Assembly: GCF_001571385.1 (NCBI RefSeq)
Contig: NZ_BCNW01000001.1
Span: 930,001-994,000, forward strand
Length of the DNA: 64,000 nt
DNA from: Methanofollis ethanolicus
Lineage (GTDB): Archaea > Halobacteriota > Methanomicrobia > Methanomicrobiales > Methanofollaceae
Direction: 5' to 3'
Shown here: positions 2,490 through 26,374 of the stretch, one piece after another
Numbering within the stretch: the stretch's first letter is position 1
Layout of the letters: every line of letters starts with the position of its first letter
Translations under genes and position numbers: made by a program
Notes under the pieces: model-generated
What the model saw: only the letters and a program-made list of their open reading frames with translations
Told to the model about the DNA's origin: nothing
Databases searched by the model: none

Positions 2490-5400
2490 TCATGTTCTGT
2501 CGGTCTCCATGTACCGGTGAACGGTCACGACGTCGTCGAAGTCGATCCTGCCGTTACCGTTGTAATCGAAGACCCGGGAGTTCTTCTGCGAGGTGATGGT
2601 CTCGAAGTGTTCGAAGTAGGCGCTGATATCGCCGAAGTCCAGGGTACCGTCGCCGTTCACGTCCTCGAAGAGGCCGTCGCCGTCACCGTCGCCCGGGATG
2701 CCGACGCCACCGGGGAGGGGCGAGAGGCCGACGACGTCGATGACGCCCGGTCTGCAGATCACGGCCGTCTCTTCGCCGTTGTCCGCGTAGACCACGACGT
2801 CTCTGGCCGTGATCCCGGCCGTACCGTCGGTGAGGCCCCTGATCTTCAGGGTGGCGAGGACGACGTTCTCCGCACCTGCTTCGACGGTGTTGCCGTCGTC
2901 GGTCGCGTCGAAGGTGATGGTGGTGCCGGGTACGCCCGACCCCCCGTATGCGCCCGCAAGGAAGGCAAAGTCGACGCCGGTGATCATGGCGTTCGTTCCT
3001 TCAAGGCTGACCGTGAGGCTGACATTTTTCAGGCCGTCAGGGAGATGGTCGGCGACGATGGCGACCTCACGCTCTGTCCCGGCGGCAACGGTTGTTTTGA
3101 GCGGGGCGAACGAGATCACCGGTGCGATATCGGTGAAGGTGACATTGTCGAGCCAGCCGCAGTCATCCCCTCCAGAGGTGTACGCACGCTTCTCGTACGT
3201 CCACCGGAGGGTGTGCTCGCCCTTCTCCAGGGTGTAGTGCATATCCTGCCAGCCGTCGTCCTTGCCTGCGATCTCCTCCTGCATCTCGCCGTCGACGGAG
3301 AAGGCGAGGACGTCGGAGTACTTCATCGAGTCACTGTCATAGGAGGAGACCTGCCAGTCGAAGGTGAGGTTCTTCGGACCGGTGACGGTGGTTTCGATCC
3401 ATGACTGCTGGCTGCGTTTGATAGCACCGGTGTGGCCGCAGCTGCCGTGGATGTAGGTCTCGTTTACGTCGACGAACCAGGAGGCGTCGCCGCCTGTCGT
3501 CCAGGCGAGGCCTTCTGCGTCGAGGGCCTCTTCGAAGGTCGGGGTGACGGTGATGTAGCCGTTCTTGACCTCCATCTGCCCGTCAGGGGCGGTGTCCTTC
3601 TGCACGATGAGGGTGACATTGTAGACGCCGGGTCTGGTGTAGGTGTGCGTCTGGTTCCGGCCGACTGCCGACGCCCCGTCGCCGAAGTCCCAGGCCCAGT
3701 GGGTCGCGGTGCCGGTCGTGTACCCGGTGAAGTCCACGGTGAGCGGGACCTCGCCCCGCGTCACGTTGCCGACAAAGTCGGTGTCGTCGACGGGCGTGAA
3801 GGTGACGTTGTCAAGCCACCCGCAGTCTTTCATCATGCCCTCACCAGAACCCTTCTCATACACCCACCTGACGGCATGCGTGCCGAACCCGAGCCTGTAC
3901 CCCTCTTCAGACCAGTTTCTGGGGAAACTGCAGATTTTCTTCTCCTCTTCACCGTCAATGAGGAACCTCAGGTAGTCATAACTGGGTTCAGAGGAGACGT
4001 TCCATGCAAAGGTGAGGTAGCCGGGGCCGGTGATGTTTGCCTGGAGCCATGACTGCTGGTTTTCGCCGATGGCGCCGCTCCGTCCCGAGGTGGTGCCGGT
4101 GTGGACGCAGTCGACGTCGACGAACCAGGGTGCGTTCCCGCCGGTGGACCAATCGAGGTCGGGTGCCTCGACGGCCTCAGGAAGGGTGGCGAAGGGAACG
4201 GTCGTTACGGTCTCTGTCGCGGTGCTGGTGCCGGCGTCGTTGGTGACCGTCAGGGTGACAGTGTACTCTCTGACCTCCTCGAAGGTGTGGACAGGGTTCT
4301 GCTCGTCTGATGTTGCGCCGTCGCCGAAGACCCAGGACCACGCGGTCGGGCACCCTGCCGAGGTGTCGTTGAATTGCACCGTCGCCGGGGCCATCGCCCG
4401 CGTCACATTGGCCTTGAAGGCGGCCGTCGGCTGGATGGCGCCGTAGGTGTAGGTGACGTTGTCGAGGTGGCCGCAGTGTTCGGGGGAGAAATAATACTCG
4501 TTGGTGTAGGTCCACCTGAGGGCGTGTTCGCCGGGCGGGACTTCATAGTACACGCCGGGCCAGGACGTGCCCTCTCTGGTACCCTTGATGCTGTTCAGGG
4601 ATCTGCCGTCGGTCGAGAACGCCAGCTGCCCGTCGTAGGTGAAGGAGCTGGAGTTGATGTTCCAGTTGAAAGTGAGGACGCCCGGGCCGGTGACCGTCGC
4701 CTCGATCCAGGAAGTGTTGCTGCTGGATGAGATGACGCCGCTCCTCGCGGAACTCCCGCCCTTCAGGAAGCAGTAGATATCGGTGGACCAGTCGGCGTCG
4801 CCGCCGGTCGTCCAGACAAGGTCAGAGGCGTCGACCGCTGTGCTGAGGGCGATGGGCTCGATGACTTTCACCGTCTTCGTCACCGTGTCGGTGCCGAGGA
4901 CGGCCCTGCCGTCGGTGTCCTTCCCGACGATGTTGGTGACCGTCAGGGTGACCGGGTATTCGCCCGCGTTCTCGTAGACGTGGGTCGGGTTCTGTTCAAC
5001 AGAGGTTTTGCCGTCGCCGAAGTCCCAGTCCCATGCGGTCGGGAATCCTGTGGAGTTGTCGGTAAACTGGACGGCCAGGGGTGCCATGCCGCGGTCCTCG
5101 GTCACGTTGGTGACGATGTCCGCGACAGGTTCGCCGCCGCCGTAGGTGCAGGTGACATTGTCGAGCCACCCGCCGTTCTCCGCGGCCTCGGTCATCAACG
5201 TGGAGTAGGTCCAGGTGACGGTGTGGGTGCCGTGGCCGATCCTGTACGTCTCATGGGACCAGTCTGAGCCCCACTGAATCTTCTTGTACAGGTTGTCGTA
5301 CTGATCTGCATCGTCGACAGCGAACTCCAACTTACCCATCGGCATTCCGTAGATTTTGCCGGGGTTCACCTTCCAGTCAAAGGAAAGGATACAGGGGCCT

Positions 5401-21432: not shown

Positions 21433-21705
21433 ATGGCTGATTATCCGCAATTCATCGTATATACTCTCGAATGCTGTCCGCACTGCGAACTCCTGAAGGA
21501 CTATCTTACGGCACGGGGCTACCCCTTCGTCGAGGAGGACATGTCCTCAGCCGAATCCCTCACCGAACTCCGGGTGAACGGCGTCTTTGTGAACGAGGCG
21601 CCCGTTCTGCGGTGCGGTGAAGACGATTTTTACACCTCTTCCGACCTCTTCGAGAAGGGCCTTCTGCGGGAGGACGTCGTCGACCGGATTGCCGCGGGTG
21701 AGTGA
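21433..21705 (+). CDS. Glutaredoxin/NrdH-like redoxin, probable reductant of the ribonucleotide reductase
   Basis: 90 residues with a thioredoxin fold: IVYTLECCPHCELLKDYL gives a CPHC redox motif (plus an extra preceding Cys), and VNEAPVLRCGEDDFYTSSDLF holds the cis-Pro. GGGAG lies 8-12 bases upstream. Its stop overlaps the nrdD start (GTGA). Redoxin-dependent class III reductases use such proteins in place of formate, so the pairing implies it reduces NrdD or an accessory disulfide. Confidence 0.88.
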   Translation: MADYPQFIVYTLECCPHCELLKDYLTARGYPFVEEDMSSAESLTELRVNGVFVNEAPVLRCGEDDFYTSSDLFEKGLLREDVVDRIAAGE

Positions 21706-24700
21706 CGGTGGAGACGCAGAAGAGGCAGGGCTCGGGCATGCCCGGAAAGAACAGTCCCCGGTCCTCCCTGTCCCGGCAGGCGACCCTTGACGGTGTCTTC
21801 CTCCCCCCTCTCCCGAAGGTCAGGTCGTCCGAGGGCCATATCTTCGAGTGGGACAGGTCGAAGATCATCGCCCAGATCGAGAAGGAGACAAAACTGGTCG
21901 AGGACTTCTACGGCTACGGCGGGGCGACGCCCGAGCAGGCCGGGGAGATCGCAAAGGAGGTCGAGGAGAGGATCAGGAAACTGGGCCTCCGTTCCCTCTC
22001 CGGCCCCCTGATCCGCGAGATCGTGAACATGACTTTCCTGGAGAAGGGGATGGTCCAGTACAGGAACGTCTGCACACGCGTCGGCACCCCGGTCTTCGAC
22101 GCCCATCTCATCGACGTCGGCCGCGGTTTCGAGGCCCACGACAATGCGAACCTCCAGGAGAACGCCGAGACCTCGCACAAGAAGAAGGCCGACAAGATCT
22201 CCAAGGAGCAGTACCTCCTCCAGCTCCCGCCTGAACTCGCCGACCGCCACCTCGCGGGCGACCTCCATGTCCACGACCTCGAATATTTCGGTACGCGGCC
22301 CTTCTGTCTCGACGGGAGCACGGTCGTTCCTTTCCGCGTCTCCGGGCGGCACCTGACGATGCGGCTGGACGAACTGCCTCTCGACGGCGACGCATATCTC
22401 CCGGCCGACCTCGCCGCCCTCACCCCGCAGGGCTACCGGCCTGTGCAGAAGGTCACCCGGCGCCTGGTCGGGGAGGGCGAGATGCTCCGCATCCGCACGG
22501 CCACCGGCAAGACCCTCCGCGTCACGCGGGAGCACAGGATTCCTGTTCTGGCAGACGGGACGATTGCGATCACAAAGGCTGGCGAGGTGCAGGAGGGCGA
22601 CCTGCTCTATGGCCCTGACGAGACATTGTCACTCCGCGGCGAGTCCGTCGATACAGTCGACCTGGTCCGGGAACTCTCCGCATCCGTACCCCCCGAAGAC
22701 CTGGAGACAGTCTTTGTGCGGGGTGCACGCCCCATCTTTGATAAACTCTCAGAGGCCGAGGGGAGTTATACCGGGATATCCCGCGCCCTCGGCATCGAGC
22801 ACCGCAAGGAGTGGTTCACCCGCGGCACCATGCCCCTTGCGGTCTTTGTGAAACTCTGCGACCACTACGGCGTCGCCGACTACGGCGACCTGACGGTCGG
22901 CGTCGCCGGCAGCGAGCACGACCTCCCGGCCGTCCTGCCTGTCACCCCGGCCCTCTGCCGTCTCCTCGGTCTCTTTGTCTCCGAGGGGAACTACGACGTC
23001 GTGCCGGGCAGCACCTACAACCTTGCCATCACCGAGAACCACCAGTCTGAGGCGGTCGTCGCCGATGTCAGAGCGGTGCTCGGGGGCTATGCGACCCTTT
23101 CAGGCGGCACGCCCGACGTGACCGAGATCTATGGCGTCAGGGTCGAGCATGACCGGGCGATGCAGGTCTCCTTCGGCGGGAAACTCGGATGGCTCCTCTT
23201 CAGGTACGTCTTTGCCATTCCCGAGGGTGCGACGAAGAAGCGTCTGCCCTGGCTTGTCTGGCACCTGGACGACGCCCTTCTTACGGAGTTCCTCTCGGCA
23301 CTCTTCACCGGCGACGGGTCCGCGTATTACAGGCCGGAAAAGTCCGACTGCATCGTCAATTACACCACAGTCTCGGCCTCCCTGCGGCAGGAACTCTCTC
23401 TCCTCCTCTCCTCGCTTGGCATGCGTCCTCAGGTCGTCGAACTCTACGCCGACGACGACCGCACGACCCTCTACCGCCTCCAGCTTAACGGATCGGCAAA
23501 CATCAGGGCCTTTGCCACATGGGCCAGGTTCCTCGACGACAGGCAGGAGCACGTCGACCGCTTCTGTGCCGCAGTGAACCCGATCGCCCGCACGCCCCGC
23601 GGCGAGGAGGTCGTCGCCATAGGTGAGGTCGCGCCCTCGGGCGAGTATGTCTATGACCTCTTCCTGGACGGGGACGGAACGGAAGAGAGCCACACCTTCT
23701 ATGCCTCTGACGGCCTGCTCGTGCACAACTGCCAGGACTGGGACCTCCGTTACTTCTTCTATTACGGCCTGATGCCCGACGGCAACGGCACGAAGGCTTC
23801 GGTCGCCGGCCCGGCAAAGCGTGCCGAAGTCGCCGTCCTTCACGCGGTCAAGGCACTCGGGAGCGCGCAGACGAACTTTGCGGGTGGCCAGGGCTACTAC
23901 AACTTCCTCACCTTCCTCTCCCCGTACCTCGAGGGGATGGAGTACGGCGAGATGAAACAGCTGATGCAGATGTTCGTCTACGAGATGACCCAGATGATGG
24001 TCGCCCGCGGCGGACAGCTCGTCTTCTCCTCGGTGCAGCTCTCGCCGGGCGTCCCGACCCTCTGGCGGGACAAGCCCTGCGTGTACAAGGGCAAGGTCTG
24101 GGACGGCACCCAGGCGCCCCTCCGGACCTATGGCGAGTTCGAGCGCGAGGTCCGCCTCCTCTTCAAGGCGCTCATTGAGGTGATGCTGGAGGGCGACTAC
24201 TGGGGCAAACCCTTCTCCTTCCCCAAGCCCGAGATCTCCATCGAGCCCGACTTCATGGACGAGGACGAGGAGTTCAACAGGCGGCACCCCGACCTGCCCA
24301 CATACCGTGACCTCTACCTGCTCACCTTCGAACTCGCCTCCAAGTTCGGCACCCCGTACTACGACAACCAGCTCCCCCCCTACAGGGGCGCCGGGAAGGG
24401 GATCTCGTGCTACCAGTGCTGCGCCTACCAGTTCTCCTCCACCATAGAGAAGGACGATTCTTTCGAGGACAAACTCTATTTCAGGGACGCAAAACATTTC
24501 TCGATGGGTTCCTGGCAGGTCGTCTCGGTCAACTGCCCGCGGGCGGCGTACCGTGCCGAAGGTGACGACGAACGCCTCTTTGCCGAACTGAAGGCCCTCA
24601 TGGACGTCGGTGCGGAGGTCTTCCAGATCAAGAGACGGTGGATGGAGACGATCCGGACGAACGGCCGGATGCCCTTTGCGATGCAGAGGCCGAAAGACCC

Positions 24701-25343
24701 GAACACCGGCGAGAGGGGTGCGGTGGCCGTCGACCTCGACAGCCTGGTCTACACGATCGGCGTCGTCGGCGTGAACGAGATGGTCCAGCACCACACAGGC
24801 CAGCAGATCCACGAGAGCAAGAAGGCGTTCAAACTCGCCGTGCGTGCGATGACCGAGATGGAACTCCATGCCCGCGAGATCTCGGAGAAGACCGGGATGA
24901 CCCTCGCCCTGGCTCGGACGCCCGCGGAGACGACGGGCCAGCGCTTCGCGGTCGCCGACATGCTCGACGACCACTTCCGCGAGGCGGCCCTTGCGGTGAT
25001 GCAGGGCGACGTCGAGACCGCGGTGGCCGAGTGCGGGAACACCCGCGACCTTCCGGTCTACTACACGAACGGCACCCATGTCGCGCCGGGCGCAGACGTC
25101 CCCCTCACGAAGAGGATGGAGATCGAGCACGTCTTCTTCCCGATCGTCGACGGCGGCAACATCTTCCATATCTGGCTCGGCGAGGCGCGGCCCGACCCCC
25201 GCGGTCTCTATGACATGGCGATGAACCTCTGCCGGAAGACCCAGATCGGCTACTTCGCCTTCACCCGCGACCTGACCGTCTCCCTGAAGCGCTTCCGGGA
25301 GTACCACGGCGAACCGCTGACAAAGGGGAAACTGGGGGTATAA
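21702..25343 (+). CDS. nrdD: Class III (anaerobic) ribonucleotide reductase NrdD with intein; C-terminal glycyl-radical domain absent
   Basis: 1213 codons: N-extein residues 1-201, intein 202-676, C-extein 677-1213, giving a spliced product of 738 residues. GTG start overlaps the redoxin stop. Extein motifs match NrdD: LAGDLHVHDLEYFGTRPF joined to CQDWDLRYFFYYGL, GGQGYYNFLTFLSPYLEG, the CYQCCAYQF active-site cysteines, and VVSVNCPRAAYRAEGDD. It reduces ribonucleotides to deoxyribonucleotides. Oddly, the protein stops about 20 residues after YFAFTRDLTV. NrdD proteins normally continue with a four-Cys zinc site and an RVxGY glycyl-radical loop; neither is here and none is encoded before the next gene. 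It may need a separate radical-bearing subunit, use another radical source, or be a divergent paralogue. Confidence 0.9.
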   Translation: MTVETQKRQGSGMPGKNSPRSSLSRQATLDGVFLPPLPKVRSSEGHIFEWDRSKIIAQIEKETKLVEDFYGYGGATPEQAGEIAKEVEERIRKLGLRSLSGPLIREIVNMTFLEKGMVQYRNVCTRVGTPVFDAHLIDVGRGFEAHDNANLQENAETSHKKKADKISKEQYLLQLPPELADRHLAGDLHVHDLEYFGTRPFCLDGSTVVPFRVSGRHLTMRLDELPLDGDAYLPADLAALTPQGYRPVQKVTRRLVGEGEMLRIRTATGKTLRVTREHRIPVLADGTIAITKAGEVQEGDLLYGPDETLSLRGESVDTVDLVRELSASVPPEDLETVFVRGARPIFDKLSEAEGSYTGISRALGIEHRKEWFTRGTMPLAVFVKLCDHYGVADYGDLTVGVAGSEHDLPAVLPVTPALCRLLGLFVSEGNYDVVPGSTYNLAITENHQSEAVVADVRAVLGGYATLSGGTPDVTEIYGVRVEHDRAMQVSFGGKLGWLLFRYVFAIPEGATKKRLPWLVWHLDDALLTEFLSALFTGDGSAYYRPEKSDCIVNYTTVSASLRQELSLLLSSLGMRPQVVELYADDDRTTLYRLQLNGSANIRAFATWARFLDDRQEHVDRFCAAVNPIARTPRGEEVVAIGEVAPSGEYVYDLFLDGDGTEESHTFYASDGLLVHNCQDWDLRYFFYYGLMPDGNGTKASVAGPAKRAEVAVLHAVKALGSAQTNFAGGQGYYNFLTFLSPYLEGMEYGEMKQLMQMFVYEMTQMMVARGGQLVFSSVQLSPGVPTLWRDKPCVYKGKVWDGTQAPLRTYGEFEREVRLLFKALIEVMLEGDYWGKPFSFPKPEISIEPDFMDEDEEFNRRHPDLPTYRDLYLLTFELASKFGTPYYDNQLPPYRGAGKGISCYQCCAYQFSSTIEKDDSFEDKLYFRDAKHFSMGSWQVVSVNCPRAAYRAEGDDERLFAELKALMDVGAEVFQIKRRWMETIRTNGRMPFAMQRPKDPNTGERGAVAVDLDSLVYTIGVVGVNEMVQHHTGQQIHESKKAFKLAVRAMTEMELHAREISEKTGMTLALARTPAETTGQRFAVADMLDDHFREAALAVMQGDVETAVAECGNTRDLPVYYTNGTHVAPGADVPLTKRMEIEHVFFPIVDGGNIFHIWLGEARPDPRGLYDMAMNLCRKTQIGYFAFTRDLTVSLKRFREYHGEPLTKGKLGV
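22305..23729 (+). other. Intein with LAGLIDADG homing endonuclease inside nrdD
   Basis: 475 residues (202-676 of the ORF). Splice block A begins CLDGSTVVPF. Block B contains LRVTREHRIPVL with its TxxH. Two LAGLIDADG-type helices are LLGLFVSEGNYD and FLSALFTGDGSAY. The end is block F-like YVYDLFLDGDG and block G LLVHN followed by the +1 residue Cys of CQDWDLR. All splicing nucleophiles (Cys1, terminal His-Asn, Cys+1) are intact. The first LAGLIDADG helix lacks the usual acidic position pattern (VSEG), so endonuclease activity is uncertain. Confidence 0.93.
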
Positions 25344-25345
25344 AG

Positions 25346-26374
25346 GTGAGCGACCGCCGCATTCTTGCGATCGACGTGGGCCGCGGGACGCAGGACGTCA
25401 TCCTGTACGACCCCGGTCAACCGGTCGAGAATTCGGTTAAACTCGTCCTCCCCTCCCCGACGGTCGTTGTCGGCACCGCCATCCGCGAGGCCGCACGCTC
25501 GGGCCGTCCGGTCCACCTGGAAGGCAGGTGCATGGGCGGCGGCGGGACCGTCATGGCGGTGCAGAAGGCCCTTGCCGCCGGCGTCCCTGTCAGCGCCACC
25601 CCTGCGGCCGCGCTCACCATCCACGACGACCCGGCCCGCGTGCGGGCGCTCGGTGTCGGCATTACCGACACGGCGCCGGCAGACGCGGTGACGGTGCGGA
25701 CCGCCGACTACATGGAGAAAGAACTCCGGTCGGCCCTCTCCCTCTTCGGCGTGCCGTACCCGGAAAGGATCGCGATCGCGGTGCAGGACCACGGTTTCGC
25801 GCCGAAGACCTCCAACCGCGTCCACCGCTTTGCGGTCTTCCTGGACCTGCTGGAGAAGGGTGACTGGGACCTCTTCGCCCTTGCCCCGGACCCGCCGCAC
25901 CCCTCGATGTCCCGAATGCGGGCGGTCCTCGAAAGCGCCCCTGGCGCCCTCGTCACCGACACCGGACCGGTGGCGGCGATCGGCACCCTCCTCGACCCGC
26001 GGGTCGCGGAGATGGCGAGGACAGGTGTCACTCTCGTGAATGCCGGCAACGGCCACACCCTCGCCTTCACCCTGAAGGGCGGCCGCGTCTCTGGCATCTT
26101 CGAGCACCACACCTCCTCTCTCGACCCGGAAAAACTCGGGGTGTACATCAGGAAACTCCAGGAGGGCACCCTGACGAACCAGGAGATCTTCGAGGACGGC
26201 GGGCACGGCGCCGCGGTCAGGGAGGCGACGGGCAGAACCCCGGTCGCCGTCACCGGTCCGAACAGGACGTGTCTCCTGCCCGACGCGTACCCGGCGGCAC
26301 CCTTCGGCGACATGATGCTCACCGGGTGCTTCGGCCTCCTCGAAGTCTGGAAGAGGAGACGGGGCGGGATCTGA
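25346..26374 (+). CDS. DUF1786 family protein (actin-like ATPase fold)
   Basis: 342 residues from GTG at 25346, 2 nt after the nrdD stop and next to AAAGGTGA. LAIDVGRGTQDVILYD at the N-terminus is the phosphate-1 loop of ASKHA (actin/Hsp70/sugar kinase) proteins, and VTLVNAGNGHTLAFTLKGG in the C-terminal half resembles the phosphate-2 loop. The family is archaeal and often labelled as a putative pyruvate formate-lyase activating protein; that label lacks support here because no CxxxCxxC radical-SAM motif is present. Operon position suggests a role with the reductase, but this is inference. Confidence 0.82.
   Translation: MSDRRILAIDVGRGTQDVILYDPGQPVENSVKLVLPSPTVVVGTAIREAARSGRPVHLEGRCMGGGGTVMAVQKALAAGVPVSATPAAALTIHDDPARVRALGVGITDTAPADAVTVRTADYMEKELRSALSLFGVPYPERIAIAVQDHGFAPKTSNRVHRFAVFLDLLEKGDWDLFALAPDPPHPSMSRMRAVLESAPGALVTDTGPVAAIGTLLDPRVAEMARTGVTLVNAGNGHTLAFTLKGGRVSGIFEHHTSSLDPEKLGVYIRKLQEGTLTNQEIFEDGGHGAAVREATGRTPVAVTGPNRTCLLPDAYPAAPFGDMMLTGCFGLLEVWKRRRGGI

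Follow-up and report, generated by a model that had tools for sequence, protein, structure and literature searches.

Glycyl radical enzymes normally carry the radical glycine on the catalytic chain itself. Small autonomous glycyl radical domains (GRDs) are nevertheless known: YfiD/GrcA and the phage T4 protein Y06I replace the domain lost by oxygen cleavage of a wholly encoded pyruvate formate-lyase (PFL; PMC8683613). A split enzyme has also been described among class II ribonucleotide reductases, NrdJa/NrdJb (cited in PMC9669993), and among class III reductases (NrdD) a subtype with a QCC finger-loop motif has been named NrdD3 (PMC9669993). No description of a split NrdD or of a split glycyl radical enzyme was found in the open-access literature searched. 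Here, a 64,000-nucleotide stretch of the Methanofollis ethanolicus genome (contig NZ_BCNW01000001.1, positions 930,001 to 994,000; hereafter the window) was analysed, with a focus on its nrdD gene, the product of which ends before the GRD. Very probably, this product is the catalytic core of a two-protein NrdD3-type class III reductase, in which a separately encoded GRD subunit would dock in trans. At the sequence level, the proposal is supported by the truncation of the core, by a GRD with an intact glycine, by the complementarity of the two halves, by their co-occurrence and co-loss with the activase NrdG2 and by two viral loci where the halves are encoded side by side.

The pair resembles class III NrdD (PF13597, TIGR02487; NrdD3) in its fold family, QCCA motif, NrdH partner, NrdG2-type activase, RVTGY loop and zinc knuckles. 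Unlike in fused NrdD, the GRD is a separate, unlinked product with an added N-terminal zinc-ribbon-like region. As for YfiD/GrcA and Y06I, a small autonomous GRD accompanies a larger chain without a working one, and viral examples exist (PMC8683613). However, the large chain is here encoded without a GRD of its own, and the small protein (P0001, see below) is of the NrdD type and not of the PFL type. NrdJa/NrdJb likewise combines a catalytic chain with a chain bearing a C-terminal zinc-finger part; since class II has no glycyl radical, the separated piece holds no radical residue in that case.

The window open reading frame (ORF) at 21702-25343 has a GTG start and encodes a class III ribonucleotide reductase of 1213 amino acids. 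It matches PF13597 at profile positions 1-60 and 53-510 of 562, and TIGR02487 above cut-off with a coverage ending at 529 of 581. Thus, the catalytic barrel of the family is present and the GRD is the part missing from the polypeptide. The NrdD3-type motif is found as CYQCCA and is invariant in 14 aligned cores. The locus is organised as follows.

21702..25343, + strand: nrdD catalytic core without GRD, interrupted by an intein (PF13597, TIGR02487)
21816..22061, + strand: ATP-cone region, residues 39-120 (PF03477, E 1.7e-4, a weak match below the gathering score)
22305..23729, + strand: complete intein with LAGLIDADG domain, residues about 202-676 (TIGR01445, TIGR01443, PF14528)
25281..25343, + strand: tail of 20 variable residues following TRDLTV (51 truncated C-termini compared with 34 fused ones)
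21433..21705, + strand: NrdH-like glutaredoxin, 90 amino acids, CPHC motif (weak Glutaredoxin/YruB matches, below curated cut-offs)
25346..26374, + strand: DUF1786 protein directly 3' of nrdD, in another frame (PF08735, E 9.8e-78)

An earlier note on this DNA had claimed that NrdD stops about 20 residues after YFAFTRDLTV and lacks the GRD, and had advised an alignment of C-termini. The PF13597 limit at 510 of 562 bears this out, and so does the comparison of the 51 truncated with the 34 fused proteins: after TRDLTV, fused NrdDs run on into the zinc site and the glycine loop, whereas the window NrdD does not. Neither an RVxGY-type loop nor any other trace of a GRD was found near nrdD in any frame, as expected from the statements that the protein has no RVxGY motif and that there is no simple frameshift tail; the sole match to the motif in the window lies in an unrelated frame, at position 4945. 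The next gene, for which a different fold had been noted, encodes a DUF1786 protein and does start 2 nucleotides downstream, at 25346, but it is offset by +2 and not in frame, as had been written. Moreover, four zinc-binding cysteines had been taken as the norm, but in many fused NrdDs from relatives within the phylum only three are retained (C...CxxC). The description of the rest of the enzyme as intact agrees with the ATP-cone, the barrel, the QCC motif and the NrdH partner, although the intein had gone unmentioned.

Since one genome alone could be wrong, the possibility that the truncation came from faulty sequencing or assembly, or marks a recent pseudogene, had to be considered. However, each of the 20 related genomes studied closely has the identical end point, so that it reflects neither chance nor an assembly error. 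The profile limit at about 510 also recurs across the order Methanomicrobiales, single-contig genomes included. This explanation is therefore refuted, its probability being practically nil.

The earlier note pictured an NrdD doing without a GRD, and proposed looking elsewhere in the genome for a YfiD-like radical subunit, a second full-length nrdD and nrdG. In a search of the whole M. ethanolicus genome with PF13597, a second locus was found at C1:120253-120405, matching profile positions 507-562. It belongs to a standalone gene (C1:120055-120417, or L004:5056-5418) located outside the window, 0.83 Mb from nrdD. The 120-residue product, P0001, comprises an N-terminal segment, a zinc-ribbon-like CHTC...CPVC region, and then NrdD-type zinc knuckles (CPLC...CPEC) and an intact RVTGY loop in which the radical glycine is Gly95. 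Thus, an NrdD-type GRD is available in the same genome as the core, and the two proteins, covering positions 1-510 and 506-562, jointly tile the profile. The same search revealed no full-length NrdD elsewhere in the genome. An NrdG-type activase is encoded at C1:1678036-1678596 and matches the NrdG2 model TIGR02495 above its curated cut-off; the canonical NrdG model TIGR02491 gave sub-threshold matches only, NrdG2 being the fitting model. Core, GRD and activase are therefore encoded at three far-apart loci. Because the separate GRD is present in the genome and conserved throughout the order, the window NrdD is better seen as one half of a split enzyme than as an enzyme dispensing with the domain.

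The two halves might also become one ordinary NrdD post-translationally, through a split intein or trans-splicing. The core does hold an intein, of 475 residues, inserted before a conserved cysteine. However, it is a complete intein located midway along the core, and many relatives that lack it are truncated all the same. Moreover, no intein splicing blocks were found at the C-terminus of the core or at the N-terminus of the GRD. A joined chain would not even resemble a fused NrdD, because the GRD gene has a separate start and its product brings an N-terminal region of its own and a full zinc site. Joining can hence be considered highly improbable.

The distribution of the two halves argues for a functional pair. 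Within Methanomicrobiales, 150 genomes were surveyed, and counts were made by hand on the 108 with at least 90% completeness and at most 5% contamination. Truncated core and standalone GRD are both present in 95 of these 108 near-complete genomes, and none has the GRD only (0/108). The remaining genomes are one with the core only, discussed below, and 12 with neither half, all from a single genus (g16, family f6), possibly Methanocorpusculum. In g16, ORFs of about 1150 residues, perhaps DNA polymerase D, match the GRD weakly (E 1e-5 to 1e-3); these matches were set aside. The co-occurrence of core and GRD has a Fisher p of 5e-15, a value not corrected for kinship. NrdG2 follows the same pattern, being present in 95/108 and absent from the same 12 genomes; their genus has, with one fragmentary exception, a class II reductase. 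Relatives of the GRD were found in Methanofollis, Methanolinea, Methanospirillum, Methanomicrobium, Methanoregula, Methanogenium and Methanoculleus, the nearest matches (89-95%) being mostly from Methanofollis. In one genome of the order (G001), the split pair is accompanied by another NrdD, of 569 residues, that includes a GRD (C1:590703-592373, profile 1-560).

Conservation within the two proteins points in the same direction. In 42 GRD orthologues, the R-V-T-G-Y residues, W103, N104 and the cysteine pairs are invariant, and in the core the QCCA motif is conserved together with hundreds of other residues. With PF02867, no class I/II reductase was detected in ten near-complete genomes (G018, G047, G059, G076, G086, G096, G112, G120, G124 and G148), each of which has one core and one GRD. 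In these organisms, the split pair is therefore the only ribonucleotide reductase detected. Taken together, the sequence data indicate that the split NrdD is probably functional.

These observations bear on another view, according to which the GRD either is a mere spare part or belongs with a different glycyl radical enzyme, the truncated NrdD being inactive or working otherwise while a class II reductase makes the dNTPs (deoxynucleoside triphosphates). YfiD and Y06I, as small autonomous GRDs repairing PFL, offer a precedent (PMC8683613). Moreover, a class II reductase is encoded in M. ethanolicus, in a long ORF at C1:767041-769554, and standalone GRDs lie beside fused NrdDs in some genomes of another family. 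However, the Pfam and NCBIfam matches of P0001 are to NrdD and zinc-ribbon models, none being of the PFL type, and Methanomicrobiales offer no intact NrdD to be repaired. The strong conservation of the core, the ten genomes without class I/II reductase and the adjoining GRD and core genes of two viral contigs are also hard to reconcile with a spare part. Overall, this view seems unlikely. The class II reductase ORF has 1131 residues with a long gap between its profile parts, as if it too were intein-bearing.

By analogy with the fused enzymes, it can be proposed that the open end of the NrdD barrel receives the GRD protein and that docking sets the glycine loop beside the active-site cysteine. 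NrdG2 would form the glycyl radical on Gly95, after which the core would reduce ribonucleotides, and the adjacent NrdH would supply the electrons that re-reduce the active-site cysteines. The NrdH-like protein is the presumed electron donor. The GTG start of nrdD overlaps the stop of its gene, and the two genes adjoin in 18 of 21 genomes (automatic gene calls). From the sequences, we infer physical assembly, radical formation in trans and activity of the split enzyme. Several points weigh against the two-protein reading. In nine cellular genomes compared, core and GRD genes are 0.35-1.3 Mb apart. In the core-only genome (G085, 93% complete), the GRD was not detected. The co-loss of core, GRD and NrdG2 may be a single event. 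With a class II reductase also encoded, M. ethanolicus may be able to dispense with the split enzyme. Finally, the AlphaFold2 models were too poor for use, the predicted local distance difference test score (pLDDT) being 59 for the GRD, with residues 95-120 below 50, and 49 for a viral truncated core for which only 4 sequences were available. A glycine loop that folds only once docked would fit the low confidence in that part, but a model of this quality carries no evidential weight.

Viral contigs give the strongest direct hint that GRD and core work jointly. A scan of IMG/VR contigs yielded 15 with a standalone NrdD-type GRD (L283-L297; ORF length 109-157 residues). The GRD is alone on 13 of them, and accompanied by a truncated NrdD on two (IMGVR_UViG_3300002220_006617 and IMGVR_UViG_3300044712_001062). 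In these two, GRD, NrdH and NrdD core follow each other in this order on a single strand, with a thymidylate synthase nearby. The viral nature of the contigs is supported by matches to tail, baseplate, tape-measure and terminase proteins on several of those examined. A single clade of viral and host truncated cores is not rejected (approximately unbiased test, p 0.51), and these cores could have a common origin. In one viral GRD (L288), the glycine loop is interrupted by an insert (RVTGSKS...), and this copy may therefore be altered. Other viral contigs (L313, L314, L316 and L317) carry a fused archaeal-type NrdD, with a radical-SAM-like gene just downstream in L314. Among phage genomes with annotation, the top-scoring GRD relatives fall mostly within annotated NrdD large subunits.

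Outside the order, the NrdDs of the relatives sampled from the phylum are fused, mostly in ORFs of about 760-820 residues covering profile positions 1-562. In an unrooted tree, the truncated cores form one clade among these fused proteins, and the simplest reading is that the fused form is ancestral. In fused NrdDs, the TKDMTV strand is immediately followed by the first zinc cysteine; at this position, 38 of 51 truncated cores have Ser and 8 have Cys. The GRD, for its part, carries both CxxC pairs, the first a short way ahead of the second, and thus a complete zinc site. This indicates that the break occurred inside the old zinc site.

Standalone GRDs also exist beside fused NrdDs, in family f8 (presumably Methanosarcinaceae, an assumed name) and in two further families, where they look like candidate spare parts. 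Their gene contexts are variable (L158-L166, L171 and L172), and the copy of L172 appears degenerate at its C-terminus. In a tree built with 54 columns, all standalone GRDs lie on one side of a 100/99 branch; since the 40 core columns leave this branch unresolved, a single origin is suggestive only. It is conceivable, although we would give the full sequence of events somewhat less than an even chance, that the standalone GRD was at first a spare part for archaeal NrdD, perhaps carried by viruses. The NrdD of the Methanomicrobiales ancestor would then have lost its GRD, and the spare part would have become an obligatory, separately controlled radical subunit. Viruses of these archaea would keep a copy of their own, in some cases together with a truncated core, in order to provide or re-arm the reductase in infected cells.

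If the two-protein reading holds, an entire archaeal order appears to keep the radical glycine on a separate small subunit. Such an enzyme would provide a natural two-component system for studying how the activase gains access to the glycine, how the loop travels between activase and active site, and whether simple replacement of a radical piece cut by oxygen is possible. It would also suggest a route from spare part to essential subunit, and would make viral genes encoding only a GRD interpretable. For annotation, it is advisable not to label NrdDs of this kind truncated or inactive, and to name the 120-residue gene as their probable radical subunit.

The neighbourhood of the GRD gene is constant in 21/21 genomes, with deoxyhypusine synthase-like and pyrF-like genes on one side, and CbiZ and two RPA genes on the other. 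The CbiZ-like gene, whose product has a Cys-rich C-terminus, directly follows the GRD gene in all 21 (L004:5415-6320), and a link with B12 and the class II reductase is possible. At the nrdD locus, the DUF1786 gene lies beside nrdD in 9 of 21 genomes, its link to the reductase being unproven; the Pfam description of DUF1786 reads putative pyruvate formate-lyase activating enzyme. Two conserved genes are divergent from nrdD in the 20 relatives and resemble, by eye, ThpR and a CCA-adding enzyme.

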